From assembly GCF_000981585.1 (NCBI RefSeq), contig NZ_LN831776.1, positions 2,743,001 through 2,807,000 of the forward strand: a stretch of 64,000 nucleotides of DNA, given 5' to 3'. Source of the stretch: Paenibacillus riograndensis SBR5. GTDB lineage: Bacteria > Bacillota > Bacilli > Paenibacillales > Paenibacillaceae. The position numbers were made by a program, and so were the translations under genes. The notes beneath the pieces are model-generated. The model searched no databases and was not told where the DNA came from. It saw only the letters and a program-made list of their open reading frames with translations. Below are positions 2 through 29,172 of the stretch, in pieces. The stretch's first letter is position 1, and every line of letters begins with the position of its first letter.

Positions 2-409
2 CCATGGCTGGAACGCAGCATCCGCGCCTGCCTGATCTGGACGAACGAACGCCAGGGCAAGCAGATTGCCGGTATCCGGGGGGAAGTGATGGATGCGCTT
101 CTCGCGCATCCGTGGCAAGGTAATTTTACCGAACTGAGCACGGTAATGGAGCTCTTTGTATCCGCGGCGGAGGGGCCGTTCATTGAACGGGAAGCGCTGG
201 CGATGCTGGAGGAAGGAAGCCGGAAAGCCCGCAGCGGCTTGGCCCCGGCGCCCGGCAGAGAAGGACTGAACCTGCGTCAGCCGCTGGTAGACATTGAGCG
301 GGACATCATCCGGACCGTGCTGGAGCAGGAGGGCATGAACCAGTCGCTGGCTGCCAAGCGGCTTGGCATCAACCGCTCGACCCTGTGGCGCAAATTAAAA
401 GAAGACTGA
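2..409 (+). CDS. Sigma-54-type transcriptional activator, C-terminal part (5' end outside window)
   Basis: The frame is open from the left edge, so the gene starts outside the window. The visible part has the end of an AAA+ domain (AHPWQGNFTEL, matching the family's H-W-P-G-N-x-R-E-L element) and a C-terminal Fis-type helix-turn-helix (EGMNQSLAAKRLGINRSTLWRK). This arrangement is typical of enhancer-binding proteins of the PrpR/NtrC class that activate sigma-54 promoters. The usual R of the NxREL element is T here. The stop lies 64 bases before the DUF1537 kinase gene on the same strand, so it probably controls the downstream sugar-acid operon. No -24/-12 promoter is visible in that 64-base gap, so the operon may share the regulator's promoter. 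The sensor domain cannot be judged. Confidence 0.75.
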   Translation, partial: PWLERSIRACLIWTNERQGKQIAGIRGEVMDALLAHPWQGNFTELSTVMELFVSAAEGPFIEREALAMLEEGSRKARSGLAPAPGREGLNLRQPLVDIERDIIRTVLEQEGMNQSLAAKRLGINRSTLWRKLKED

Positions 410-473
410 CAGGGCGGCTGAGCAGCGTTCTGCCGTACTTGTATGATTGCTGTTGTATGGAGGGGGTTAGAAA

Positions 474-1835
474 ATGAACTTCGCCGTCATCGCGGATGAC
501 TTGACTGGGGCGAATGATACAGGGGTGCAAATGGCCCGTCAGGGCTTGGCCACTTCTGTACTGCTTGAGCTGAAGACGGGCGGGGGGAAACAGGAGGCTG
601 TTGTGTTTGATACCGACAGCCGCTCTCTTCCTCCCCTGGAGGCTTATCAGAAAGTCAAGGATGTATGCCTGTTTCTGGGGCGCCGCGGAGAAGCTTCCTC
701 TCCTGTCATCTACAAAAAGTTTGATTCCACGCTGCGCGGAAATATCGGCAGTGAGCTGGACGCCGTCTATGAGACGCTGCAGCCTGATTTTGTTGTCATC
801 GCCCCTTCTTTTCCAAGGGTCGGGCGCACGCTGGCGGACGGAATTGTGTATGTGAACGGGATGCCGTTGCACGAGACAGAGATGGCTTGTGATCCCAAGC
901 ATCCGGCAACGGAATCGGCTTTCTCTGCCATTCTTGAGCGGCAAAGCCGTTATCCGGCAGCCCTTATTTCGCTGGAACAGCTGAGAGGAGAGCGTGCTGC
1001 GCTTGATGAACTGATTGCCGGGTATCGCCAGTCAGGCATTCCCTATCTGGTGTTCGACGCGGAGCGTGAAGAGGATCTGGCCTTGATCGCTTCTTTGTTT
1101 CCCGAAGGACCGGGACGTCCGAAAGTTGTTTGGGCCGGGTCAGCGGGTTTGGCAGGCGCCCTGACGGGGCAAATTCTCCGCAGCTTGAGAGAAGCCCCGG
1201 AGCAAGCGGGTGTTGTATTAAATAAGTCAGGCAATAAACAGGCAGCATCCTGCGATAATGTCGTGTATTACGATACGAATTGTGTACTTATTGTCGTCGG
1301 CAGCGTCAACCCGTGGTCCCGCCGCCAGCTAACCGAACTGGTGAAGGAGGACAGTGTTTCTGCTATCGTCGTTGAGTCGGATAAGCTGCTCTTCCCAAGC
1401 TCATGCGAGATGGAATTGAACCGGGTCCGCGAGCTTGTAACCGGCATCATCTCCCGGGAGGGGAAGCATGTGGCGCTCTATACGTCGGGCGATCCGGACG
1501 AGGTCGACCGGGTCCGCAAGCTTGGGCGCGCCAGCGGCCTGAGCGCTACGGAAGTGGGCAAGCGCATCAGCGCCGCGCTTGGCCGGGTGGCTGCTGATAT
1601 TATCGCCGAATGCGGAATCCGCCATATGGTGCTGACCGGAGGCGATACCGCGAAGCAGGTCTGCCGCCATTTAAGCGATGTGGAGATCAAGCTCATTGAT
1701 GAGGTGGAGAACGGAGTCCCGCTCGGGCGGACGCCGGGCGAATCCGGCAGATATATTATTACGAAAGCGGGGGCTTTCGGAAGCGATCAGGTACTGGTCC
1801 GCTCCGTGAAGGCTCTGCAGAAAGGCGTGACATGA
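474..1835 (+). CDS. Four-carbon acid sugar kinase family protein (DUF1537)
   Basis: Predicted ATP-dependent kinase that phosphorylates a four-carbon sugar acid (threonate or erythronate type), in the cytosol. The N-terminus carries the family signature IADDLTGANDTG, the substrate-binding domain. The C-terminal nucleotide-binding domain contains GSVNPWSRRQL and VLTGGDTAKQV. At 453 residues the length is normal for the DUF1537 (OtnK/DtnK) family. The ATG follows a GGAGGGGG ribosome binding site. Its stop overlaps the start of the PdxA2 gene (ATGA overlap), so the two are translationally coupled. In characterised pathways this kinase and PdxA2 convert D-threonate or D-erythronate to dihydroxyacetone phosphate. 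The exact substrate here cannot be read from the sequence, and the nearby lyase and Asp-box hydrolase suggest it may differ. Confidence 0.88.
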   Translation: MNFAVIADDLTGANDTGVQMARQGLATSVLLELKTGGGKQEAVVFDTDSRSLPPLEAYQKVKDVCLFLGRRGEASSPVIYKKFDSTLRGNIGSELDAVYETLQPDFVVIAPSFPRVGRTLADGIVYVNGMPLHETEMACDPKHPATESAFSAILERQSRYPAALISLEQLRGERAALDELIAGYRQSGIPYLVFDAEREEDLALIASLFPEGPGRPKVVWAGSAGLAGALTGQILRSLREAPEQAGVVLNKSGNKQAASCDNVVYYDTNCVLIVVGSVNPWSRRQLTELVKEDSVSAIVVESDKLLFPSSCEMELNRVRELVTGIISREGKHVALYTSGDPDEVDRVRKLGRASGLSATEVGKRISAALGRVAADIIAECGIRHMVLTGGDTAKQVCRHLSDVEIKLIDEVENGVPLGRTPGESGRYIITKAGAFGSDQVLVRSVKALQKGVT

Positions 1836-2839
1836 TGAAGCCGATTATTGCCATTACTATGGGGGATGCGGCCGGTATTGGGCCTGAGGTTATTGTGAAA
1901 GCGTTATCGCACCCTGATGTTTACGAGATGTGCCGGCCGGTTGTCATCGGCGATGCCGGAACACTGAAGCGGGCAGCCGCCGTCACCGGCCGGAGTGATA
2001 CGGGAATTCACCCGGTAGCGGGAGTCGCGGAGGCGCTTTTCCAGCAAGGAATCATTGATTGCATCAACCTGAATCTTCTGCCGGACACTGTGCCTTTCGG
2101 GCAATTGTCTGCCGCGGCGGGAAATGCGGCGTTCCATTATATTGCCAAGGCCGTTGAGCTGGCTAAGGCCGGTGAAGTCCAGGCAATCTGTACCGCGCCG
2201 CTGAATAAGGAAGCGCTGCACAAGGGGGGGCATCTCTACCCCGGACATACCGAAATTTTGGCCCAGCTGACTGAAACGGAAGATTTCTCGATGATGCTGT
2301 CCACTGACCGGCTCAAGGTTATTCACCTGACAACCCATGTCGGGCTGATCAAGGCAGTGGAGATGATTACGCCAGAGCGGACGTACAATGTGCTGAAGCT
2401 CGCGGATCAGGTGCTGCGAACAGCAGGAAATGAGCATCCGCGCATCGCCCTGTGCGGCATCAATCCCCATGCAGGGGAGAACGGCTTGTTCGGAAACGGG
2501 GAGGAAGAAGAGAAACTGCTTCCGGCCGTAGAAAAAGCGCGGGCGGAAGGGATGGAAGTATATGGTCCCGCTCCGGCGGACACTCTTTTTTATAGGGCCA
2601 TGCGGGGAGACTTTGATATCGTCGTCGCCTGCTACCACGACCAGGGGCATACGCCGATCAAGGTGCTTGGCATTGAGGCCGGTGTCAATATCACCGTTGG
2701 CCTGAAGGGCGGCATCATCCGTACCTCCGTTGATCATGGCACGGCTTTTGACATCGCCGGAAAGGGCATTGCGGATGAACGAAGCATGCTGGCGGCGCTC
2801 CGCTCCGCTGTCGAGCTGGCACCGCGGCAGGCAGTTTAA
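1832..2839 (+). CDS. pdxA2: PdxA2-type 4-phospho-acid dehydrogenase (4-hydroxythreonine-4-phosphate dehydrogenase family)
   Basis: NAD-dependent oxidative decarboxylase of the PdxA family. Visible signatures are MGDAAGIGPEVIVKAL at the N-terminus, PLNKEALHKGG and GHTEIL in the middle (the latter with a metal-binding His), and the second metal/active-site block CYHDQGHTPIK with the downstream TSVDHGTAFD. Length 335 residues is normal. PdxA itself acts in pyridoxal phosphate synthesis. Position directly after a DUF1537 kinase, with overlapping start and stop, points instead to the catabolic PdxA2 subgroup, which oxidises 4-phospho-threonate or -erythronate and releases CO2 and dihydroxyacetone phosphate. 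That assignment rests on gene context plus known family behaviour. Confidence 0.87.
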   Translation: MMKPIIAITMGDAAGIGPEVIVKALSHPDVYEMCRPVVIGDAGTLKRAAAVTGRSDTGIHPVAGVAEALFQQGIIDCINLNLLPDTVPFGQLSAAAGNAAFHYIAKAVELAKAGEVQAICTAPLNKEALHKGGHLYPGHTEILAQLTETEDFSMMLSTDRLKVIHLTTHVGLIKAVEMITPERTYNVLKLADQVLRTAGNEHPRIALCGINPHAGENGLFGNGEEEEKLLPAVEKARAEGMEVYGPAPADTLFYRAMRGDFDIVVACYHDQGHTPIKVLGIEAGVNITVGLKGGIIRTSVDHGTAFDIAGKGIADERSMLAALRSAVELAPRQAV

Positions 2840-2902
2840 GCGTAATCCTTGGGGCACACAAAAATCCTTATATTTTGAGATAACAGGGAAGGGCTGAGGA
2901 CA

Positions 2903-3793
2903 ATGCTGGAAGTGAAGGGAATTATACCTGCGATGGTCACTCCGCTGGATCAGCGGGAGGAAATCGACGAGAAGGCGCTGCGGCAGATGGTGAACCGTTA
3001 TATTGACGCCGGAGTGCATGGACTTTTTTGCCTGGGAACCAATGGCGAATTCTTTAATCTTTCTTTTGAAGAAAAGCTGACGGTAGCGCAAATCGTCATC
3101 CATGAGGCGCGCGGCCGCGTGCCTGTGTATGCCGGAGCAGGCTGTGCCGGAACGGGCGAGACCCGCCGCCTTGCGCAAAGACTGGAGCAGGCGGGAGCGG
3201 ATGCCCTTTCCGTGATTACGCCTTATTTTCTGACCTACACGCAGCCGGAGCTGCAATACCACTTTGAAGCCGTAGCGGGAGAGACATCGCTGCCCCTCGT
3301 GCTGTATACGATTCCTGCCCGTACAGGCAACACGCTCAGCGTGCAGACTGTGGCCAAGCTGGCGGAATTGCCGAATGTGGTTGGCATCAAGGACAGCAGC
3401 GGCAGCTTCGATAACATTTTGCAATTAATCGACCACACACCGGAATCTTTCTCTGTGCTTGCCGGAACCGATTCACTCATCTTGTCCACACTCATGGCAG
3501 GAGGCACGGGGGCTATTGCAGCAACGGCCAATATTTTCCCGTCTACGGTAGTGGCGATTTATGAGCATTGGCAGTGCGGCGAATATGAGCAGGCAGAGCA
3601 GGCACAGCGCGTCCTCCGTGATTTGCGGGCAGCCTTCGCGCTTGGCACCCTGCCTTCCGTGCTGAAAGCTGTGCTGGACGAAATCGGTTTGCCGGCAGGC
3701 CCGGCCCGCCGGCCTGTGGCTCCGTTGACACCTCAGGCGCTGGAGGAAGTGCGCCGTATGGTGGCCGGTTACGCGGAGAGAGACTTACTGTAA
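2903..3793 (+). CDS. DapA-family (dihydrodipicolinate synthase-like) class I aldolase/lyase
   Basis: TIM-barrel Schiff-base lyase of the DapA/NanA superfamily, 296 residues. Seen: GTNGEFFNLSFEEK (family phosphate/carboxylate-binding loop), tyrosine near residue 135 in LVLYTIPARTGN, and the Schiff-base lysine near residue 163 in VGIKDSSG. Members split or form 2-keto acids using pyruvate as a common partner. A biosynthetic DHDPS role is less likely because the gene is embedded in a catabolic operon after DUF1537 kinase and PdxA2. A 2-keto-3-deoxy-acid aldolase or sialate-lyase-like activity is the inference. A GAGGA ribosome binding site precedes the ATG, and the gap after pdxA2 is 63 bases. 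Confidence 0.82.
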   Translation: MLEVKGIIPAMVTPLDQREEIDEKALRQMVNRYIDAGVHGLFCLGTNGEFFNLSFEEKLTVAQIVIHEARGRVPVYAGAGCAGTGETRRLAQRLEQAGADALSVITPYFLTYTQPELQYHFEAVAGETSLPLVLYTIPARTGNTLSVQTVAKLAELPNVVGIKDSSGSFDNILQLIDHTPESFSVLAGTDSLILSTLMAGGTGAIAATANIFPSTVVAIYEHWQCGEYEQAEQAQRVLRDLRAAFALGTLPSVLKAVLDEIGLPAGPARRPVAPLTPQALEEVRRMVAGYAERDLL

Positions 3794-3812
3794 AATTTTT
3801 TTGCCAATAACA

Positions 3813-3842
3813 TTGCAAATTGCAACATGTTTTTAATATAAG
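3813..3842 (+). promoter_or_regulatory. Possible promoter with TTGCAA palindrome before importer 1
   Basis: TTGCAA at 3813-3818, an 18-base gap and TATAAG at 3837-3842 fit a sigma-A promoter. TTGCAA recurs at 3820-3825, making a symmetric TTGCAA-A-TTGCAA element (3813-3825) that may be a regulator site overlapping the -35 region. The region lies between the lyase stop and the binding-protein gene, so importer 1 may have its own promoter. Sequence-based guess only. Confidence 0.35.
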
Positions 3843-3920
3843 TAGCACAAATAAGATTTTATGCACAATTTTCCATGAGTTATAGCTATTTTTGCATTAA
3901 AATTAGTCTTGGGTTGTGAG

Positions 3921-3948
3921 ATACTAGTCATATCGACACTCCTAGTAT
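3921..3948. promoter_or_regulatory. Inverted repeat upstream of importer 1 binding protein
   Basis: Perfect 7-base arms ATACTAG (3921-3927) and CTAGTAT (3942-3948) are separated by 14 bases. They end about 30 bases before the binding-protein start codon. They could be an operator or a leader hairpin. No U-run follows, so a terminator is unlikely. Confidence 0.35.
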
Positions 3949-3978
3949 TTCAAATTACACTATGAGGGGGAACCAATA

Positions 3979-5568
3979 ATGAGAAAAAAGAAAGCGTTTT
4001 ATTTAGTCTTTGCCGCTCTGCTTGCTTCAGGGTCCGTACTGGCCGGCTGCTCACAAAATGCAAAAACGAACACTGCCAACATCGCCAACAACGGAAACAG
4101 CGGAAACGGGGGTACGGAAGGAAGCAGCAGCTTTTCTTATTTGATGCATGATAAATTTATTAACTGGCTCAAGGAGGACAAGTGGTATCCTTATGTGGAA
4201 AAGGCAACGGGCACGACAGTCGAATTTGTTCCCGGCGGCTCCAACGACGATGAGTACTACGCTTCCGTTGACCAGAAAATTATTAGCGGCACCTTCCCTG
4301 ATTCAGGCATCGTTTCCGTTTCGCAGGCTACCGTATACGGCGCCCAAGGCGCGTTTGTCGATCTGGCTCCTTATATTGATAAATTCGGGCCTAATATCAA
4401 GAGTTATATTGAAAAGAACCCAACCTATAAAACCATGATTACCGATAAAGAAGGACATATCTATGGACTGGTTGCCGAGGCTCCACGTTTTGCAGACTTC
4501 ATCTTCTATCGCGCCGATCATTTTGAGAAGGCCGGCATTACCAAGGCGCCGCAGACGATTGACGAGCTGACCGATGTGATGCGCAAATTGAAAGCGTATT
4601 ACGGCAAGGATAATAAAAACTACTATCCGATGGTCGGCCGTGAACACTATTTCCGCTTCCAGAGCGTATTCAATGCAGCCGCGAACTTCGATGACGGCAT
4701 ATCCAAAGGTATATACGCCAACGGTAAAACAGGCACTGACCTGTATTCCGACGGGTACAAGAAAATGGTGGAGTGGTATAAAACACTCTATAGTGAAGGC
4801 TTGATCGATCCTGAATGGGTGGCAGGTTCCGGCACGGAGGAAAGCTGGGAATCGAAAATGCTGACAGGACAAGGCTCCATCAGCTATGACCACCTGACCC
4901 GTCCATCGTGGTTCATGGATAACGGAGGACCGGAGAATGATCCGGACTATAATATTGCCATCCTGCCTTATCTGAAAGACCTGAACGGCAAACCTTCCGT
5001 GCAGACAACAGAAACCCAGTACAACACCTTAAGAGCGATGGTTGTTAACACGAACAGTAAAGACAAGGCGGAAACGATTATTAAATTCCTGGATTACCTC
5101 TATTCCGACGAAGGCCAGACGCTTGTTTCATGGGGTGTTGAAGGAGAAAGCTATAAAGATGAGGGCGGAAATAAGCAGTACATCGTGGACTTCTCGGAGC
5201 AGGAAGCAACGCCTGCCGGAGAGCCGCGCTGGTCTTTCCTCAACGACCGTCTCACATTCGTCAAGCCGGTAGACAACGACGCGTTCTACTCCTGGAACAC
5301 CGAGCTTGTACACAATGCCGCACATGAGCTGTTCACGGACGAAAATTTGAAAACCGGCGTAACGGTGACGTACACGGCTGATCAGGCCAAACAATTGGCT
5401 GACCTTTCCGCCAAGGTCAATGAGGCTGTTACCTCACTAGTGACGGAATTCGTCAACGGCAAACGCCCAATGAGTGAATGGGACACCTTCCTCGGCGAAA
5501 TGGAAACGGCAGGGTACAAGAAGATTGTAGCCCTCCAGCAAGAAGCTTACGACGCAATGTATAAATAA
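3979..5568 (+). CDS. Extracellular solute-binding lipoprotein, ABC sugar importer 1
   Basis: Membrane-anchored binding protein of a carbohydrate ABC importer (LplA-like, family 1 binding-protein fold). The N-terminus has KKK, a hydrophobic stretch and the lipobox LAGC at about residues 21-24. A low-complexity Asn/Gly/Ser linker follows, as usual for Gram-positive lipoproteins. The mature part contains the typical YPMVGREHYFRFQS and ASNNG-like substrate-lobe features. Length 529 is in the range of the long LplA class, which tends to bind oligosaccharides rather than monosaccharides. A GAGGGGG ribosome binding site precedes the ATG. Two permease genes follow, and no ATPase gene is present. The ligand is unknown; enzymes around it suggest an acidic or sialidase-like oligosaccharide. 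Confidence 0.9.
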   Translation: MRKKKAFYLVFAALLASGSVLAGCSQNAKTNTANIANNGNSGNGGTEGSSSFSYLMHDKFINWLKEDKWYPYVEKATGTTVEFVPGGSNDDEYYASVDQKIISGTFPDSGIVSVSQATVYGAQGAFVDLAPYIDKFGPNIKSYIEKNPTYKTMITDKEGHIYGLVAEAPRFADFIFYRADHFEKAGITKAPQTIDELTDVMRKLKAYYGKDNKNYYPMVGREHYFRFQSVFNAAANFDDGISKGIYANGKTGTDLYSDGYKKMVEWYKTLYSEGLIDPEWVAGSGTEESWESKMLTGQGSISYDHLTRPSWFMDNGGPENDPDYNIAILPYLKDLNGKPSVQTTETQYNTLRAMVVNTNSKDKAETIIKFLDYLYSDEGQTLVSWGVEGESYKDEGGNKQYIVDFSEQEATPAGEPRWSFLNDRLTFVKPVDNDAFYSWNTELVHNAAHELFTDENLKTGVTVTYTADQAKQLADLSAKVNEAVTSLVTEFVNGKRPMSEWDTFLGEMETAGYKKIVALQQEAYDAMYK

Positions 5569-5627
5569 ACAGCAGTGCCGGCCGCGCCATCCTCCCAAGG
5601 GACGGCGGTACAATACAGAGCAAATGG

Positions 5628-6599
5628 GTGGTGGAGAAAGTGATAACAAGTGAAAGAATGACCCCTCTTCCCCAAAAAACGAGGATACGCCGTTTTCTCG
5701 CCTATATGAATACGAACAAGCTGCTGCTGCTCATGCTATTGCCCGGTTTGATCAGCCTGGTATTGTTCAAACTGGCTCCGCTGGGCGGCATGATTATCGC
5801 TTTTCAAGATTTCAGCGCCTTTCGCGGGGTGCTGGGCAGTCCCTTTGTCGGTCTGGAACATTTTCAACGTATCTTTGAGGACCCGTATATTTGGACCCTT
5901 GTCAAAAATACAATCATTCTCGCCTTCTATTCCCTTCTGTTCACGTTCCCCATTCCGATTCTGTTCGCCTTGCTGCTGAACGAGGTGCGGGTCCGCTGGA
6001 TCAAAGGAAGCGTGCAATCGCTAAGCTTTTTGCCTTATTTCATTTCTTCAGCCGTTATGGTCAGCATTCTGTACACGCTGCTCTCGCCTTCCACCGGCCT
6101 TGTTAACGATATTCTGGCCCGCTTTGGCCTGGATACGATCTATTTCGTGGCTGAACCGGGATGGTTCCGCAGCAACTATGTGCTGCTTCAGGTATGGCAG
6201 ACCTTCGGCTATTCGGCCATCGTGTATATTGCTGCAATGGCGGCTATTGATCCATCCGTTTATGAATCGGCTTCGCTGGACGGCGCCAGCCGCTTTCAGC
6301 AAATGCTTCACATCACGCTGCCTTCCCTTAAGCCGACAATTGCCATCATGCTGATTATCAGCGTCGGCAACATTTTTACGGTCGATCTGGACCGGATTCT
6401 TCTCATGTACAATCAAAGCGTCTATGAGACGGCCGACGTCATTCAGACTTATGTATACCGCCTGGCTTTCGCCAGCACGGGATTCCCGGAATACAGCTAC
6501 GGCACGGCAGTCAATCTGCTGAAATCCGTTGTCGCCTACATTCTGGTTGTTGGTACCAACAAGCTGTCCACTAAATATTCGGATACGCGGCTATTCTGA
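5628..6599 (+). CDS. ABC sugar importer 1 permease, LplB-like
   Basis: Integral membrane permease with about six transmembrane segments. The N-terminal sequence resembles LplB/YteP proteins (LLLMLLPGLISLVLFKLAPLG, GMIIAFQDF). The EAA loop that contacts the ATPase is visible as YESASLDGASRFQQMLHITLPSLKP. It is 59 bases after the binding-protein gene and 12 bases before the next permease. The start is uncertain. The first in-frame GTG is 5628; a GTG at 5640 sits close to a GGAG, and an ATG at 5658 has no clear ribosome binding site. The C-terminal YSDTRLF ending is common in this family. Confidence 0.9.
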   Translation: MVEKVITSERMTPLPQKTRIRRFLAYMNTNKLLLLMLLPGLISLVLFKLAPLGGMIIAFQDFSAFRGVLGSPFVGLEHFQRIFEDPYIWTLVKNTIILAFYSLLFTFPIPILFALLLNEVRVRWIKGSVQSLSFLPYFISSAVMVSILYTLLSPSTGLVNDILARFGLDTIYFVAEPGWFRSNYVLLQVWQTFGYSAIVYIAAMAAIDPSVYESASLDGASRFQQMLHITLPSLKPTIAIMLIISVGNIFTVDLDRILLMYNQSVYETADVIQTYVYRLAFASTGFPEYSYGTAVNLLKSVVAYILVVGTNKLSTKYSDTRLF

Positions 6600-6611
6600 G
6601 AAAGGAGAAGG

Positions 6612-7487
6612 ATGATGAGAACGAAGATCAGTCTGTTCGACATCTGCAACAATATTTTTCTGCTAATGATCGCTCTTGTCTGCACGTATCCTTTCCTGTA
6701 TATATTCTTTCTTTCCATCAGTGACGGAAGAAGCATCGCCTCAGGGGACGTCGCGTTCTTTCCGAAGAACGTTAACTTTGAAGCCTATCAATATATTTTG
6801 ACGAATTCGAAGCTCGGGATTTTCCGGGGGCTGCTGAATTCAGGCATCTATACGGTGGTCGGCACGGTTGTTGCACTTCTGCTGACATATATGACGGCCT
6901 ATGTATTGTCCCGTAAGCAGATTAAAGGCCGCTTTCTGATTATGAGCCTGTTCGTGTTCAGCTGGGTATTTGAAGCGGGAATTATTCCGGCCTATATCGT
7001 CCTGAACAAGCTTGGTTTTGTGGACAACTGGCTGGTGATGATCATTCCCAATGCGATCAATGTGCAGTTTCTGATTATTACAAAAACATTCCTGGACGGC
7101 CTGCCGGTTGAGCTTGAGGAAGCAGCCAAAATCGACGGCGCCAACGATTTCCAGATTATGAGCCGCGTCTTTCTCGCCATTTCCAAACCGATTCTGGCCA
7201 CAATCGGCGTCTTCTACGCCGTGTTTATCTGGAACCAGTATCTGATGCCGCTCATTTATCTGCAAAATCCCAACTTGCAGACGATTCAGGTTATGCTGAA
7301 AAAACTTGTCATCAGTTCGGGCGATTCTAATACGGCTTTCCGCACGATTATCCAGGACGGCATTATGCTGAATCCCGGCAACCTGAAGGCTGCGGCTATC
7401 TTCGTAGCGATGGTGCCCATCGTGCTGGTCTATCCGTTTGTGCAGAAGTACTTCAAGAAGGGGATTCTGCTCGGTTCCGTGAAGTAA
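6612..7487 (+). CDS. ABC sugar importer 1 permease, YtcP/AraQ-like
   Basis: Second permease of importer 1, 291 residues with about six transmembrane segments. The EAA loop is EEAAKIDGANDFQIMSRVFLAISKP, where the E and G that dock on the ATPase are intact. The C-terminus VYPFVQKYFKKGILLGSVK is characteristic of YtcP/LplC permeases, which partner LplB-like subunits. An AAAGGAGAAGG ribosome binding site precedes a double ATG (6612 or 6615). It probably forms a heterodimer with the upstream permease and is energised by an ATPase encoded elsewhere. Confidence 0.9.
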   Translation: MMRTKISLFDICNNIFLLMIALVCTYPFLYIFFLSISDGRSIASGDVAFFPKNVNFEAYQYILTNSKLGIFRGLLNSGIYTVVGTVVALLLTYMTAYVLSRKQIKGRFLIMSLFVFSWVFEAGIIPAYIVLNKLGFVDNWLVMIIPNAINVQFLIITKTFLDGLPVELEEAAKIDGANDFQIMSRVFLAISKPILATIGVFYAVFIWNQYLMPLIYLQNPNLQTIQVMLKKLVISSGDSNTAFRTIIQDGIMLNPGNLKAAAIFVAMVPIVLVYPFVQKYFKKGILLGSVK

Positions 7488-7553
7488 GCTCGTTTGCCTG
7501 CAAGGAGCCGCCCGGCCATTTCCTGCAATTTGTTAAAATAAGGAGCGAACATT

Positions 7554-8681
7554 ATGTTAAATCATCCGATACTCGAATTAAACGACCTTACGGAAGACGG
7601 AAAGCTGTATTTCAACCGCCGCCTCGGACTGGTGGAATCCCTTTTGCCCTGCGATCTCGAATCAAGCCATGCCTGCGACCTGCAGGAGCTGCCTAATGGC
7701 GATTTGCTCTGCGTCTGGTTTGCCGGCTCGGATGAAGGCAACTCGGATGTCAGCATCGTGATGTCCCGTTTGAACGCCGGTTCGGACGCCTGGACGCCTG
7801 CTGTGAGAATTTCCGACGACAACGGCTTCAGTGAGCAAAACCCGTCCTTGTTTCTTCATCCGAACGGCGAATTATGGGTCGTGTACACTGCCCAGCGGGC
7901 CCGTACGGGCGACGAGTCGCCGGAGTTCAACCTGCAGTACACCTCCAAGATTTACCGTAAAGTTTCCAGGGACAACGGGAAGACCTGGGGGAAGGCGGAG
8001 GTGATGTTCTCGCGTGAAGGCTCGTTCTGCCGCCAGAAAATCCAGATTCTCTCCAGCGGAAGATGGATCTTTGAGAACTGGATCTGCTTCAATGACGACA
8101 CCCGCAACGGCAGCGACATTACGGTCATGAACATCTCCGACGATGAAGGCGCCACGTGGCGCAATGTCGAGGTTCCCGGCAGCCGCGGCCGCGTGCACTG
8201 CAACGTGATCGAGATAGCGCCCGGGAAGCTGATCGGGCTCTTCCGCAGCCGCTCAGCGGACAATATTTATTTTGCGAAATCGGACGACAACGGGGAGACC
8301 TGGACGGAACCGGTGCGCACCGAGCTGCCGAACAACAACTCCAGCATTTCCGCCATTAAGCTTGCGAGCGGCAAGCTCGCCGTCATCTACAATGATTTGC
8401 GCTTCAACGACAAGCCGGATATTACCGTCTGGCCGTTTGAACGCTGCCCTGTTACTGTAGCCATTTCAGAGGACGAGGGCAGAACGTGGCCTTACCGCCG
8501 CCATGTGGAGACAGGTGAAGGCTTCAGCGGCCACAAAAACTTAATCCGCAACCGCCGCTACGAGTATCCATGCATGATGCAGGCCGCGGACGGAAGTCTG
8601 CATGCAGCCTATTCCTTCGGCAACCGCCGCACGATGAAGTTTGTCTCCTTCACGGAGCAGTGGGTTACCGGCGCCGAATAA
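7554..8681 (+). CDS. Asp-box (BNR) sialidase-like hydrolase, intracellular
   Basis: Six-bladed beta-propeller protein of the sialidase-like superfamily (BNR_2 type), 375 residues. Four Asp boxes (S-x-D-x-G-x-T-W) are seen: SRDNGKTW, SDDEGATW, SDDNGETW and SEDEGRTW. The N-terminus shows no signal peptide or lipobox, so the enzyme should be cytoplasmic and act on something imported. The canonical sialidase FRIP motif is not apparent, so true sialic-acid hydrolysis is doubtful. It is 66 bases after importer 1 with an AAGGAG ribosome binding site, and is probably the last gene of the unit because a strong terminator follows. Its likely task is to release an acidic sugar for the upstream kinase, dehydrogenase and lyase; this is inference. 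Confidence 0.8.
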   Translation: MLNHPILELNDLTEDGKLYFNRRLGLVESLLPCDLESSHACDLQELPNGDLLCVWFAGSDEGNSDVSIVMSRLNAGSDAWTPAVRISDDNGFSEQNPSLFLHPNGELWVVYTAQRARTGDESPEFNLQYTSKIYRKVSRDNGKTWGKAEVMFSREGSFCRQKIQILSSGRWIFENWICFNDDTRNGSDITVMNISDDEGATWRNVEVPGSRGRVHCNVIEIAPGKLIGLFRSRSADNIYFAKSDDNGETWTEPVRTELPNNNSSISAIKLASGKLAVIYNDLRFNDKPDITVWPFERCPVTVAISEDEGRTWPYRRHVETGEGFSGHKNLIRNRRYEYPCMMQAADGSLHAAYSFGNRRTMKFVSFTEQWVTGAE

Positions 8682-8700
8682 CCGGACTGCTGCCGGGCTG

Positions 8701-8723
8701 AGCCCCCTTTTGGGGCTTTTTTT
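8701..8723 (+). terminator. Rho-independent terminator
   Basis: Stem AGCCCC / GGGGCT with a five-base loop followed by seven or more T residues. It closes the sugar-acid operon just after the Asp-box hydrolase. Confidence 0.9.
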
Positions 8724-8729
8724 GATCGG

Positions 8730-8758
8730 TTGACAAAGAAAAAGCGGTGCGGTACAGT
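8730..8758 (+). promoter_or_regulatory. Sigma-A promoter for the AraC regulator gene
   Basis: TTGACA at 8730-8735, a 17-base spacer and TACAGT at 8753-8758. It sits directly after the terminator, so the AraC regulator, and perhaps the kinase and phosphorylase after it, form a separate transcription unit. Confidence 0.75.
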
Positions 8759-9649: not shown

Positions 9650-9687
9650 ACCAAAGCCGTATCTATACATGAATGGGGGAAATAACC

Positions 9688-10644
9688 GTGTTTGATTTTG
9701 ATAATAACGTGAAATTTGAAGAGAAAGACCTGGATCTTTTAACTGTTGGGGAACTGCTGGTGGACATGATACCGGGGGATTACGGCGATTCCTTTGAGAA
9801 CGGCACGTACCACCGGTATTTTGGAGGCTCGCCGGCCAATATCGCCATGAATACGAAGCGGCTGGGCATCCGCCCGCTTGTGGCATCCACGGTGGGGACG
9901 GATGGGCTTGGACAATTTCTGGTGGAGCATTTGAGAAGAGTTGAGATGGATACAAGCTGCGTTCAGCGTGTGGACGAAGCAACCAGCCTGGTGGTCGTGA
10001 CCAAGAGCAGGTCCACACCGGTCCCGATCTTCTACCGGGGAGCCGATTACCGGTTGGCCTACACAGAGGAATTGCGCACAGCCCTTCTCCGGACGAAGAT
10101 CGTCCATTTCTCCTGCTGGCCTTTGTCCAGGCAGCCGGTAAGATCGGCGGTGGAGCAAGTGATCCGGGACGCCCGCCGGAACGGGATTCTCGTCTGCTTT
10201 GACCCCAATTACCATCCGGCGCTTTGGGAGAAAGGGGAGGACGGAGTTAAGTATATCCAATCTATTCTTCCCCTTGTCGATATCGCCAAGCCGTCGGAAG
10301 ACGATGCCGAGCGGCTGTTCGGGAAAGACACCCCGGAGAATCAGATGCAGAAGTTTCTGGATCTGGGCGTGAAGCTGGTCATTCTGACTTTGGGCAAGGA
10401 CGGCGCGCTCGTCTCCAACGGTCAGGAAACAGTGAAGTTCGATACTCTGGCTACGCAGGTGACAGATACAACAGGGGCAGGAGATGCCTTCTGGTCCGGC
10501 TTTTATACGGCGCTCGTCAAGGGGTATCCGGTTCGCAAAGCGCTGGAGTTCGGGCTGGCGGTCAGCGCGTACAAGCTGCAATATACGGGGGCGGTCGTAG
10601 AGCTGCCGGCACTTGAGACATTCAAGACGAGGTACCAAATCTAG
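9688..10644 (+). CDS. PfkB-family sugar kinase, probable fructokinase
   Basis: Ribokinase-fold kinase. Seen: the glycine-rich substrate motif FGGSPANIAMNTKRLG near the N-terminus and the C-terminal ATP/catalytic motif DTTGAGDAFWSG with its catalytic Asp. The GTG at 9688 is preferred because GGGGGA lies seven bases upstream; an ATG at 9673 overlaps that site. The next gene is a sucrose phosphorylase whose ribosome binding site overlaps this gene's stop. Sucrose phosphorylase yields fructose and glucose 1-phosphate, so a fructokinase role is the natural inference. Related PfkB kinases for 2-keto-3-deoxy sugar acids share these motifs, and given the upstream sugar-acid genes this remains an alternative. 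Confidence 0.85.
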   Translation: MFDFDNNVKFEEKDLDLLTVGELLVDMIPGDYGDSFENGTYHRYFGGSPANIAMNTKRLGIRPLVASTVGTDGLGQFLVEHLRRVEMDTSCVQRVDEATSLVVVTKSRSTPVPIFYRGADYRLAYTEELRTALLRTKIVHFSCWPLSRQPVRSAVEQVIRDARRNGILVCFDPNYHPALWEKGEDGVKYIQSILPLVDIAKPSEDDAERLFGKDTPENQMQKFLDLGVKLVILTLGKDGALVSNGQETVKFDTLATQVTDTTGAGDAFWSGFYTALVKGYPVRKALEFGLAVSAYKLQYTGAVVELPALETFKTRYQI

Positions 10645-10657
10645 GAGGGCGAGAGTA

Positions 10658-12127
10658 ATGGCAATTCATAATCAAGTACAACTAATTACGTATCCCGACT
10701 CGCTGGGCGGGAGCCTGCAGACCTTAAACCACGTGCTGGATGAGCATTTTTCAGATATTTTCAAGGGCGGCATTCATATCCTTCCTCCATTTCCCTCCTC
10801 GGGAGACCGCGGATTCGCTCCGCTTACTTATTTTGAGATTGAGCCTGCATTCGGTGCTTGGGAGGACATTAGGGCGATCGGGGCGAAACATGATGTGCTG
10901 CTGGATGTGATGGTCAATCATATTTCCCGGCAGTCGGAGTATTTTCAGGATTTCCTGAGGCAGGGAAGACGCTCGCCCTACGCGGATTTATTCCTGACAC
11001 TCGACAAAATCTGGGCAGGCGGACAGCCTGTTCAAGCCGATATCGACAAAATGTTTCTCCGCCGTCCCTTGCCGTATTCCACGTTCACTATTGAAGAGAC
11101 GGGTGAAGAGGAGAAGGTGTGGACGACTTTCGGCAAAACCGATCCTTCGGAACAGATTGACCTCGACATTCATTCGGACAAGGTAAAACGTCTGCTGGCC
11201 GATATCTTTGAAAATTTCCGTAACAACAACGTCAAGATTGTGCGGCTGGATGCCGTAGGCTACATCATCAAGAAGCTGGGCACGAGCTGCTTCTTCGTGG
11301 AGCCTGAAATTTACGGCTTTCTGGACTGGATCAAGGAGGTGACCGATTCGCTGGATATCGAGCTGCTGCCGGAGGTTCATTCCCACTACAGCATTCAATA
11401 TAAACTGGCGGAGCACGGTTTTTGGATTTATGATTTCATCCTGCCTTACCGCATTCTCGATACTCTCGTCAATAAAAATGCAGAAGCGCTGAAGGAATAC
11501 CTGACCACGCGTCCTGCAAAGCAGTTCACGATGCTGGACTGCCATGACGGCATCCCCGTCAAGCCCGATCTCGACGGATTGATCGACACGAAGGAAGCGC
11601 GCAGGCTGGTCGATACTTGTCTTGAACGCGGCTCCAACCTGAGCCTTATCGTCTCCGATGAGCATAAGGCTGAGGACGGGTTCGATGTGCACCAGGTCCG
11701 CTGCTCCTACTATTCCGTGCTGAACAGCGATGATGACGCTTATCTGGCGGCCCGTGCCATCCAGTTCTTCGCTCCGGGCATCCCGCAGGTGTATTACGTC
11801 GGACTTTTGGCCGGAGAGAACGATGAAGAAGGAGTTCGCCGCACAGGAGAAGGGCGGGAAATCAACCGTCATAACTTCAGTATAGACGAGATTGAGCAGG
11901 CGCTTGGCAAAAGCGCAGTCCAGCGTCTTCTTGCGCTGATCCGGTTCCGCAACGAATACGGCGCCTTTAACGGCGATTTCCGCGTACTGGAAGCGGCAAG
12001 TAATGAGGTCCGGCTGGAGTGGACCAAGGGTGATCTGCGCTGCACACTGTATATTGACCTGAGCACTAACCGGACGGTCATTGATTACGTGGAGACGGAA
12101 GGGATGAGTGTTCAGTTTGAGGTGTAA
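10658..12127 (+). CDS. Sucrose phosphorylase family glycoside phosphorylase (GH13 subfamily 18)
   Basis: Cytosolic phosphorolytic enzyme that would cleave sucrose, or a close relative such as sucrose 6-phosphate or glucosylglycerate, into glucose 1-phosphate and the remaining moiety. It is collinear with known sucrose phosphorylases from NQVQLITYPDSLGG onward. Catalytic residues from this start: nucleophile D198 (VRLDAVGY), acid/base E239 (LPEVHSHY) and transition-state D297 (LDCHDGI). Length 489 is normal. The ATG at 10658 is chosen for the AGGAGG at 10643-10648; an open extension upstream would overlap the kinase. Acceptor-loop residues that separate sucrose from sucrose-phosphate specificity cannot be judged by eye. 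Confidence 0.9.
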   Translation: MAIHNQVQLITYPDSLGGSLQTLNHVLDEHFSDIFKGGIHILPPFPSSGDRGFAPLTYFEIEPAFGAWEDIRAIGAKHDVLLDVMVNHISRQSEYFQDFLRQGRRSPYADLFLTLDKIWAGGQPVQADIDKMFLRRPLPYSTFTIEETGEEEKVWTTFGKTDPSEQIDLDIHSDKVKRLLADIFENFRNNNVKIVRLDAVGYIIKKLGTSCFFVEPEIYGFLDWIKEVTDSLDIELLPEVHSHYSIQYKLAEHGFWIYDFILPYRILDTLVNKNAEALKEYLTTRPAKQFTMLDCHDGIPVKPDLDGLIDTKEARRLVDTCLERGSNLSLIVSDEHKAEDGFDVHQVRCSYYSVLNSDDDAYLAARAIQFFAPGIPQVYYVGLLAGENDEEGVRRTGEGREINRHNFSIDEIEQALGKSAVQRLLALIRFRNEYGAFNGDFRVLEAASNEVRLEWTKGDLRCTLYIDLSTNRTVIDYVETEGMSVQFEV

Positions 12128-27036: not shown

Positions 27037-28791
27037 TCACTCCGCCCCTCCGCTGAGATTCTGCGGGGTGAAGATCATGTCCTCGACGGGCCCGGTGATC
27101 TCTTGGGAATGGCGGCCGACGGTTACTCTGCCTGCGTCCATTTTGCGGACACTGATTTTATGGCCGGCTTTTAGCAATGAATGGGCGCCTGATTCGCCGC
27201 TTACTATTGGTGCAGTCAGGTTCCCGCCGGCCTCCAGCTGTGATTCCCGGCAGACTGCCTCCGGCAGCAAGAAGGTGATGTCTGCCAGGGAAAGCAGATC
27301 GCTTTGCAGGGTCCCGTCCTTGCGAATGCAAATATCGCCGCTTGATTTGATGATGGTGTTATGGCACTCGGGGATGTCAACACAGACGTTGGCTTCCTCC
27401 ATGCGGGCTACCCCGGTATACAGATCCTTCAGCAATTTCAATAACGACACCAGCAAGGCATCATTAAAGGCATCGATGAACTGGGCTGGCCGTAAGAAAA
27501 TGTCCAGAATCCGCTGCAGCTGGCTGTTGTCTGGATGAGAGGTATATTTAATGCCGGCAACTATGGACTCCAGATCACGGGTCAGGACGGGAATCTTCTT
27601 ATATTTAGTCTCCATGAGCAGCAGAATGACCTGCCCGAACTTTACCGTCTGCTGTCGGGACTGTAATTCATAGGTCAGCAGTCTGGAGGCTTCCCGCAAG
27701 AGGTTGACTTCTTCGATCAGCTTCTCGGAGAGGTGATAGAGACGGTTGTAGGTTACGCCGAAGGAGCCTGAATACAACTGGCTGTTGCCCACATTGCCCA
27801 GTATATAAATACTGCCTGTTGCTGTAATGGTAGAATTCTGGACATTGCCGCATACATACACATTCCCTAAGGACTCGATGATCGAGTTGTCTTCCACGTC
27901 CTGGTGTACAATTACATCGCCGGAGAAGACGATATTGCCTGTATGGCGGTTCACACAGCCCGGAACGGTATATGCGGTTGTGATATCGAAAGTTTTGACC
28001 TTTGTGCCGGTCACACGCGGCCGGCCTTCTGTAAGGGCTGTAATTTCATGGCTTGGCAGCAGCAGAGTGCCCTCTTTGGCTACAACTTTGATATCCCTGG
28101 GAGGTGCGGCGGGCAGAATACTGCCGTATACATCGTACCCGGGTACACCGTCGCGGGGAAGGTGCTTGCGGGCAATGACATCGCCTTTCCGGGCACAGGG
28201 AATCCGGAGTGGATCGGGGGAATCCGCAGCCTCTTCTAAGGGATTGAAAGGGTTTCCGGCAAGCCCGGAAAAAAACAAATCAAGCTTGGCGTCTTCGCCT
28301 GCAGCAGGCGGCCTGCCTTCCGCCACACAAATCGGCAGATGGGTCGGATGATTCAATTCTGCATAGATGGCGGGGATATTCAGGTTTTGCGAAATCGTTT
28401 TTTTCTCCAAATCGGCAATAATCTGTTCAATCCCGAGGGTGGACAGCAGAGCGGAAGAGTCCATTTCAGCCCTTACCGCGAGATGGCTCGACGCCGGGCT
28501 GTTCACCAGATTCCATTTATACTGTTCGACACGGTTCAGGGTAAGGAAGGCTTGGAGTTTATCGTCGGAGACGGTGATCTCATAGGGAGGCGGTTCTTGT
28601 ATGGACCAGGTAACCCGGTCGGAGGATACAACGGGTACGGGACCAGCTACCGGCTGATGATTAAGCTCCAGCACAACAGGCGGGATAGCGGAAAGGATTG
28701 CCGGCTTGCCGCCGGGCAGCGGGGAGGTAATGTAGAACTGGTTGTTCTGGACAATAATAATGCCGTTTTTCTCGGTGGTGCGCTGTGGCAT
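27037..28791 (-). CDS. FapA-family (DUF342) polymer-forming protein
   Basis: Cytosolic protein of 584 residues with the FapA/DUF342 layout: an N-terminal alpha/beta part and a central right-handed beta-helix (TGNIVFSGDVIVHQDVEDNS, VYVCGNVQNSTITATGSIYI, LGNVGNSQLYSG). A coiled helical stretch (LSEKLIEEVNLLREASRLL) and further beta repeats follow. AAAGGAGCC precedes the ATG. FapA-type proteins have been linked to flagellar assembly and the cell surface, but the biochemical role is not settled. The cyclic-di-GMP-I riboswitch in its leader ties expression to the motility/biofilm second messenger. Confidence 0.85.
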   Translation of the reverse strand: MPQRTTEKNGIIIVQNNQFYITSPLPGGKPAILSAIPPVVLELNHQPVAGPVPVVSSDRVTWSIQEPPPYEITVSDDKLQAFLTLNRVEQYKWNLVNSPASSHLAVRAEMDSSALLSTLGIEQIIADLEKKTISQNLNIPAIYAELNHPTHLPICVAEGRPPAAGEDAKLDLFFSGLAGNPFNPLEEAADSPDPLRIPCARKGDVIARKHLPRDGVPGYDVYGSILPAAPPRDIKVVAKEGTLLLPSHEITALTEGRPRVTGTKVKTFDITTAYTVPGCVNRHTGNIVFSGDVIVHQDVEDNSIIESLGNVYVCGNVQNSTITATGSIYILGNVGNSQLYSGSFGVTYNRLYHLSEKLIEEVNLLREASRLLTYELQSRQQTVKFGQVILLLMETKYKKIPVLTRDLESIVAGIKYTSHPDNSQLQRILDIFLRPAQFIDAFNDALLVSLLKLLKDLYTGVARMEEANVCVDIPECHNTIIKSSGDICIRKDGTLQSDLLSLADITFLLPEAVCRESQLEAGGNLTAPIVSGESGAHSLLKAGHKISVRKMDAGRVTVGRHSQEITGPVEDMIFTPQNLSGGAE

Positions 28792-28894
28792 TGCGTTTGG
28801 CTCCTTTTTATATAATCAATGGGCATTTGGACATAAGAGTATCCCGGCAGCAGATACGGTACCCTAACGGATACCCGCACAGTTCAGCGTCTTC

Positions 28895-28978
28895 TTGGCA
28901 GCCTGGCAGCCATGGATGCGATGTTTGCATCTTTAGGCCCATTGCTTTGCGTCCTATCCTTTCAGATAGTTTGCCGTT
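28895..28978 (-). ncRNA. Cyclic-di-GMP-I (GEMM) riboswitch upstream of fapA
   Basis: Read on the minus strand, the region has the GEMM-I core in order: GGCAAAC, a P2 stem CTATC / GATAG closed by a GAAA tetraloop, GGACGCAAAGC, the receptor GGGCCTAAAG, a P3 stem-loop, and the closing GGCTGCCAGGCTGCC. The P1 ends (GGCA with TGCC) pair. These are the conserved elements that bind c-di-GMP. It ends about 100 bases before the fapA start. No U-run is present in that stretch, so control may be translational. A possible switch stem is GTATCC / GGATAC between the aptamer and the gene. Confidence 0.88.
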
Positions 28979-29172
28979 ATGAAATGGATCAATGATTAGC
29001 CGAATCAGGTATGTAACCCGACTGAAGCCGGCAAAGGAATCATAATTAAAAATTCAAATATATAAACTTTTGCAACCTTCATTTTAGTACTAAAGTCACT
29101 AATTTACAATATTTAATTATATATTTATATAGATTAAATGGCTACCGGCCAGCAGGTGTCTGTACGGTTGGA

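Follow-up and report, generated by a model that had tools for sequence, protein, structure and literature searches.

A conserved five-enzyme unit in Paenibacillus riograndensis and its proposed role in the breakdown of the pectin sugar acid Dha

Sialic acid catabolism combines a sialidase with the lyase NanA. GH143 enzymes are hydrolases of Dha (3-deoxy-D-lyxo-2-heptulosarate), a seven-carbon (C7) sugar with two acid groups that belongs to the pectin domain rhamnogalacturonan II (RG-II); of the RG-II sugars known to us, no other is a C7 2-keto-3-deoxy diacid. RG-II loci of Bacteroides contain GH138 and GH143 genes (glycoside hydrolase list in excerpts of PMC7922503). D-threonate is degraded by the DUF1537 kinase DtnK and the dehydrogenase PdxA2 (Zhang et al. 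2016, as cited in excerpts of PMC9997740). Here we analyse a gene unit that resembles each of these systems in part. It lies, but for its upstream end, in a 64,000-nucleotide stretch (the window) of Paenibacillus riograndensis SBR5 (analysed genome 7.92 Mb, G000; below, G and L numbers denote genomes and loci). The unit encodes a DUF1537 kinase (KIN), a PdxA2-type dehydrogenase, a DapA-family lyase, an iron-containing alcohol dehydrogenase (FeADH) and an Asp-box protein (ASP).

KIN and PdxA belong to the same families as DtnK and PdxA2 and probably carry out the same two reactions. Unlike the DtnK-PdxA2 pathway, the unit adds an aldolase and an FeADH, which we propose make D-threonate, and a sialidase-like first enzyme. 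As in sialic acid catabolism, a sialidase-fold enzyme would be followed by a pyruvate-yielding DapA-family lyase, and YhcH occurs in some relatives. However, a branch for C4 acids takes the place of the amino-sugar genes, and Arg1 and the Glu of sialidases are replaced by His. As in the Bacteroides RG-II loci, GH138, GH95, GH78 and GH106 genes surround the DapA-FeADH genes of relatives. The Paenibacillaceae would differ in releasing and using Dha with ASP, DapA and FeADH, and the window's own genome lacks GH138.

We think it fairly probable that this unit serves the breakdown of Dha. A small molecule containing Dha would be imported, and ASP would set Dha free, either by cleaving a ketoside or by hydrating a 2,3-ene form. 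The DapA-family enzyme would cleave Dha into pyruvate and 2,3-dihydroxy-4-oxobutanoate, and FeADH would reduce the latter to D-threonate. KIN would then convert D-threonate to D-threonate 4-phosphate, which PdxA would oxidise to dihydroxyacetone phosphate and CO2. The redox steps of FeADH and PdxA balance if both use NAD(H). We infer the substrates and the order of steps from gene linkage, protein families, the fold of ASP and the RG-II association in relatives, each of which is shown below. Dha fits because its cleavage by a DapA-type enzyme would leave a C4 aldehyde acid that can be reduced to the kinase substrate. When the stereochemistry is worked out, lyxo C5/C6 gives D-threonate on reduction (two of the four D-configurations do), which matches the best family matches of the window's KIN and PdxA. 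The conversion of D-threonate to dihydroxyacetone phosphate by a kinase and a dehydrogenase is described in excerpts of PMC10079672.

A first-pass annotation of the window had already placed kinase, dehydrogenase and lyase in one route. The linkage stands; the order is probably another one, with the lyase and the alcohol dehydrogenase acting ahead of KIN and PdxA. The same annotation took the route to be new, and our literature search agrees: among the matches listed, most of them represented by the openings of their abstracts, we found no description of Dha catabolism or of this gene set. Tentatively, and with somewhat more doubt than conviction, we suggest that this is the first catabolic pathway known for Dha, leading by way of free D-threonate to pyruvate and dihydroxyacetone phosphate, and that the cytoplasmic ASP opens a new lineage within the sialidase superfamily, with His or Gln for the catalytic Glu, acting on Dha ketosides or on the plant acid daucic acid.

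All genes named in the first-pass annotation were found at the positions and on the strand given there. They lie on the forward strand, beginning with the C-terminal part (2..409) of a PrpR_N/Fis-type regulator of 593 aa whose gene starts upstream of the window (G000:C1:2741628). There follow KIN, a D-threonate-kinase-like four-carbon acid sugar kinase (474..1835; SBD_N 2.5e-65, NBD_C 7.5e-35), the PdxA2-type 4-phospho-acid dehydrogenase (1832..2839; PF04166 1.8e-105) and the DapA-family pyruvate lyase/aldolase (2903..3793; motifs GTNGE, YTIPARTG and GIKD). Next come the sugar-binding protein (SBP) of a CUT1/LplA-like importer (3979..5568; SBP_bac_8 2.1e-15), its two permeases (5628..6599 and 6612..7487, both BPD_transp_1) and ASP (7554..8681; BNR_2 5.3e-56). 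The KIN and PdxA genes share 4 bases. The gaps measure 64 bases between regulator and KIN, 63 between PdxA and DapA, 185 between DapA and SBP, 59 between SBP and the first permease, 12 between the permeases and 66 between the second permease and ASP. The proposal of one co-directional unit holds, with the correction that the unit also takes in FeADH. The gene of this fifth enzyme (385 aa, PF00465 9.2e-44) lies upstream of the window, 50 bases ahead of the regulator gene (L031). The unit extends past the window edge.

The order FeADH-regulator-KIN-PdxA-DapA-SBP-permeases-ASP-AraC-PfkB-sucrose phosphorylase is kept in all 10 distinct genomes with the close orthologue (L033/L061 represent one contig, as do L034/L063, and each pair was counted once). 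L064 departs from it by a single extra LacI gene after AraC. The named carriers belong to Paenibacillus and Fontibacillus. In G033 (L035 9976-11900) ASP and AraC are each broken into two frames, by either assembly error or decay; its KIN is 98% identical to that of the window.

The five enzymes form a genuine, conserved module. Out of 315 plasmid records that contain an ASP homologue, 18 neighbourhoods were chosen by hand for diversity. Fifteen of them have ASP, DapA, FeADH, KIN and PdxA together within roughly 10 kb, and a sixteenth, from Pantoea (L071), is complete but for the kinase. The Streptomyces (L072, DapA only) and haloarchaeal (L082) neighbourhoods carry ASP homologues without the core set. 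KIN and PdxA form one fused protein in L067 and L085. The module spans Firmicutes and proteobacteria, and its gene order varies, also among genomes related to the window's (L036/L037, L056). On a Niallia taxi megaplasmid (L084) DapA-FeADH-KIN-PdxA occur with no ASP within 10 kb; genes for a D-2-hydroxyacid dehydrogenase, an MFS carrier, GntP and a sugar-diacid regulator lie there too.

The first-pass annotation had staked its reading on such co-occurrence for both the Asp-box enzyme and the importer. The Asp-box enzyme does recur with the other enzymes, but the importer is replaced and is no constant part of the system: the transporters beside the modules of relatives are of the sodium:solute symporter (SSS), TctC or Dpp-type ABC kind or, in L056, L073 and L074, of the CitMHS kind. 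This replacement speaks against the earlier view that an acidic oligosaccharide other than RG-II or Dha is imported and cut by the Asp-box enzyme. That view can draw on the CUT1/LplA-like importer of the window and its orthologues, on Asp-box homologues in pectin loci, and on the fact that most ASP-bearing modules among 150 relatives sit in genomes without GH138. However, DapA and FeADH are linked to RG-II loci, and on chemical reasoning we are aware of no further common oligosaccharide sugar from which aldol cleavage and reduction would yield D-threonate. We regard the earlier view as improbable.

The 150 relatives include the window's own genome and come mostly from the same genus and family. 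Presence was called at E<=1e-20 for ASP of any group and at E<=1e-70 for FeADH. ASP occurs in 24 genomes, FeADH in 24 and both in 23, the ASP count pooling three groups (G113, G117 and G148 have group 3 only); the Fisher p of 8e-25, like the other Fisher values given here, overstates independence because the relatives share ancestry. Tightening the FeADH threshold to E<=1e-100 leaves 20 genomes, 19 of which carry ASP (p 1.5e-18), and removes the weaker FeADH matches of G022, G031, G113 and G117. DUF1537 genes occur in 47 of the 150 genomes, among them all 24 FeADH genomes. ASP is rare in a sample taken across Bacillota, where 3 of 398 genomes have it at E<=1e-40, the window's own among them; the other two genomes contributed short loci (L087, L088) that show ASP and at most a permease. 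No relatives were found in the viral collections searched.

Alternatively, the unit could serve plain threonate or erythronate use, or vitamin B6 synthesis, with neighbours that are unrelated. Indeed, 15 of 20 fetched KIN regions hold KIN-PdxA with no FeADH, DapA or ASP in the stretch, and one holds KIN alone. Against this, ASP, DapA and FeADH travel with KIN-PdxA across phyla and gene orders, a co-occurrence that strongly disfavours the idea. Moreover, the genome has PdxS and no PdxJ, which is not the setting of a vitamin B6 PdxA. We give this explanation almost no credence.

In relatives, the tie of DapA and FeADH to RG-II is strong. A second ASP group (42-48% identical) occurs in pectin clusters; those annotated here also encode GH95, apiosidase-like, GH106, GH78 and pectinesterase proteins. 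The product of L043:16268-18985 is a close homologue (3.8e-214) of BPa0997 (PDB 6hzf/6hze), which we take to be a GH138 RG-II galacturonidase. A GH138-type gene is present in 16 of the 150 genomes; 14 of these have FeADH and 14 have ASP (p 1e-11 each). In 11 of the 16, FeADH and GH138 share a contig at a distance of 2.1-28.4 kb, and in G118, G129 and G134 they are on separate contigs. DapA lies near FeADH on the GH138 contig in 10 genomes (G005, G007, G083, G103, G119, G122, G132, G136, G137, G141). Nine of these ten stretches include GH138 or GH78, and G119 has GH138 18.8 kb away.

KIN and PdxA belong to the same RG-II locus in G007, G119, G122 and G136. In G132, G137 and G141 the pair is placed elsewhere (L095, L098, L103), as expected if DapA and FeADH make the kinase substrate; the RG-II locus of G141 has an additional weak KIN-like open reading frame (ORF; 60 bits). 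Ten genomes have an RG-II cluster with two Asp-box genes of different groups (G073, G103, G118, G122, G129, G132, G134, G136, G137, G141), which matches the two 2-keto-3-deoxy acids of RG-II. Taken together, the RG-II linkage in relatives points to Dha as the substrate. Excerpts of PMC7922503 place GH138 among the families that specifically debranch RG-II, and list it chiefly in Bacteroidetes and Acidobacteria. RG-II is an essential component of the plant wall and conserved across plants, and within plants Dha and Kdo (3-deoxy-D-manno-oct-2-ulosonic acid) occur solely in it (excerpts of PMC12168206).

RG-II contains other acids, Kdo and aceric acid among them (excerpts of PMC12168206 and PMC12282258), and the DapA family does include ulosonic-acid aldolases. 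A unit for either acid is nevertheless very improbable on chemical grounds. Cleavage of Kdo would give pyruvate and D-arabinose, so a tetronate kinase and PdxA are not needed, and aceric acid has a branched skeleton that a DapA-type enzyme would not accept.

GH138-bearing RG-II-type loci of relatives from the same order are found in L039-L052 and L117-L124. A 974-aa ORF in one RG-II locus (L096:194-3118) matches no family and was set aside as an antisense shadow of GH138. Another stretch of that locus (L096:16745-19900) has a weak PDB match only.

The best NCBIfam model for the window's KIN is D-threonate kinase (NF047819; 289.9 bits, below the cut-off of 450), as it is for L056, L095 and L101 (285.8-328.7 bits for the four, same cut-off). 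The best model for PdxA is D-threonate 4-phosphate dehydrogenase (NF002891; 367.5 bits, below the cut-off of 583), while the general pdxA model TIGR00557 is matched above its cut-off. DapA exceeds the cut-off of TIGR00674 (4-hydroxy-tetrahydrodipicolinate synthase, DHDPS; 225.3 against 206.15), which does not imply a role in lysine synthesis because the genome has four paralogues. DHDPS likewise joins pyruvate to a C4 aldehyde acid. In the DapA proteins of Firmicute modules and FeADH-bearing RG-II loci that were aligned (those of L089 and L101 were too short and left out), the DHDPS motif YNVPxRT (here YxIPARTG and close variants) keeps its Arg, presumably the residue that holds the carboxylate of that C4 acid. 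For FeADH, the best models are ErcA, sulfoacetaldehyde reductase and lactaldehyde reductase, all under cut-off, which would be fitting for a small-aldehyde reductase. A distinct DapA-family protein (motifs VCQSSEMF, YECPxPYK and FLKDT) occurs in L053, L054, L055, L057 and L118. In L053-L055 and L057 its gene adjoins group-3 Asp-box genes, and L053 has genes of the GH88 and enolase families as well; these loci possibly represent another sugar-acid route.

ASP has the six-bladed sialidase fold of GH33, although the VIA-align fold lists leave other folds possible. Many listed plasmid rows label its BNR_2 group exo-alpha-sialidase or sialidase family protein. At the presumed active-site positions we find H39, D65, H215, R231, R297 and Y338; this map onto NanI is partly assumed, with H39 and R297 outside a printed pairwise alignment. 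The Arg of the FRIP motif is replaced by His39 in 23 of 23 module ASP (six of them close orthologues), so that the GH33 Arg triad is incomplete, while R231 and R297 are retained. The catalytic Glu that activates the Tyr in sialidases corresponds to H215 in all 23, and to Gln in 12 of 12 group-2 homologues. D65 and Y338, the putative acid/base Asp and nucleophile Tyr, are invariant at the expected spacing. By eye, neither the window's ASP nor 22 module-linked homologues have a signal-peptide-like N-terminus. The first-pass annotation was thus right that the enzyme has no FRIP motif, shows no evident signal peptide and is not a standard sialidase. We considered GH143/BT1020 as the closest solved relative and rejected it, since the match to 5mqr, presumably BT1020 itself, is insignificant (E 0.24); group-2 and group-3 Asp-box proteins gave no match to it.

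The probable role of ASP is to release Dha from a ketoside or to hydrate the Dha glycal. The second activity is the core of a rival reading that shares the whole lower route and differs in the first step only: ASP would hydrate the 2,3-ene glycal of Dha or open or anomerise free Dha, and small-solute transporters would do the import. This 2,3-ene glycal would be daucic acid, a free plant acid. The replacement of the catalytic Glu by His in all module-linked ASP agrees with such chemistry, as do the SSS, TctC, CitMHS, MFS/GntP or Dpp-type transporters of relatives and the binding of Neu5Ac2en, a 2,3-ene form of sialic acid, by sialidases. An esterase adjoins the module in L073, no glycoside hydrolases are listed near 12 annotated proteobacterial units, and hydroxycinnamoyl-daucic acids have been tentatively identified in carrot (excerpts of PMC7589261). 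However, the window's CUT1 importer is of a type usual for glycosides. In L036, L071, L074 and L075 YhcH/YiaL, which we take to be an anomerase, stands beside ASP, so a second anomerase is less needed. Overall we find this first step rather unlikely, yet likelier than the other alternatives.

Several observations weigh against the Dha route, in addition to the shared ancestry and pooled ASP groups noted above. Eight of the 150 relatives have an ASP-bearing module (G000, G022, G027, G031, G033, G078, G089 and G129), and all of these except G129 lack GH138, the window's own genome included. Without GH138, these seven would merely scavenge. The ASP group in RG-II loci differs from the module ASP group, and G111 and G116 have GH138 with neither FeADH nor ASP. 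FeADH-KIN-PdxA occur without ASP, DapA or GH138 in G106, and FeADH-PdxA-KIN with no DapA nearby in L092. At the enzyme level, KIN and PdxA both stay under their NCBIfam family cut-offs. The window's PdxA is nearly tied with the 4-hydroxythreonine-4-phosphate dehydrogenase model (367.5 vs 364.5), and the PdxA of the RG-II locus L096 favours it (358.6 vs 334.6). Of the 16 plasmid loci that bear the module, 8 have another DapA subfamily without the Arg (L067, L069, L070, L077, L079, L080, L081, L085), and the argument from this residue is weaker there. Finally, hydrolysis by ASP is not assured because its catalytic Glu is missing.

The Dha route makes Dha use directly testable, because it names a set of five genes. 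If true, it would provide a natural origin for D-threonate and a function for the BNR_2 group that carries sialidase labels. It also indicates RG-II loci in Paenibacillaceae.

The regulator was described in the first-pass annotation as sigma-54-type, which probably does not hold. The full-length protein has PrpR_N (1.6e-50) and a Fis-type helix-turn-helix (HTH_8), and a scan of it found neither a Sigma54_activat match in the AAA region nor GAFTGA. Lacking GAFTGA and with its AAA domain degenerate, it is probably not a sigma-54 activator. PrpR_N-type regulators also adjoin modules in L036, L056, L084 and L092, and a Sigma54_activ_2 match is retained in the first three. In a one-strand scan for sigma-54 promoters, matches of 8-9/10 fall within genes. 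One intergenic exception (9/10) lies in the FeADH-regulator gap of L064, and not in that of other loci.

A candidate operator, the palindrome TTGCAAATTGCAA (3813..3825), lies within the DapA-SBP gap. Its form TTGC-N5-GCAA recurs at the same position in all 11 scanned loci (10 distinct genomes), with the half-sites in invariant columns of the gap, and a similar palindrome lies 124 bases ahead of FeADH (L031:4296). Across the 1.92 Mb of loci fetched, some of which overlap in part, the pattern occurs 0.033 times per kb. In the other 18 module or RG-II loci scanned, no such palindrome turned up ahead of these genes; it is therefore a trait of the window's branch.

A terminator-like stem-loop with a T run (8700..8718, forward strand) follows ASP and would end the unit. 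This call rests on its sequence and placement, because terminator-like sites in the whole scan show no excess over shuffles (13 vs 14.6). A promoter-like site lies behind ASP at 8730-8758, where the scan gave 16 such sites vs 10.3 in shuffles. The PfkB kinase and sucrose phosphorylase genes (window 9673-12127; TIGR03852 above cut-off for the latter) stand beside the module in 10 genomes. They were rejected as parts of the pathway, since they lie behind both sites and LacI is inserted ahead of them in L064. AraC-PfkB-sucrose phosphorylase looks like a separate unit.

Elsewhere in the window, a c-di-GMP-I riboswitch (28894-28985, reverse strand, 76.7 bits) lies just upstream of a FapA-like gene (27037-28791, reverse strand). 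A further glycan-use region (32355-54085) holds GH2, GH35 and melibiase genes with two histidine kinases, and a hydantoinase/oxoprolinase-type gene lies at 59568-61712.

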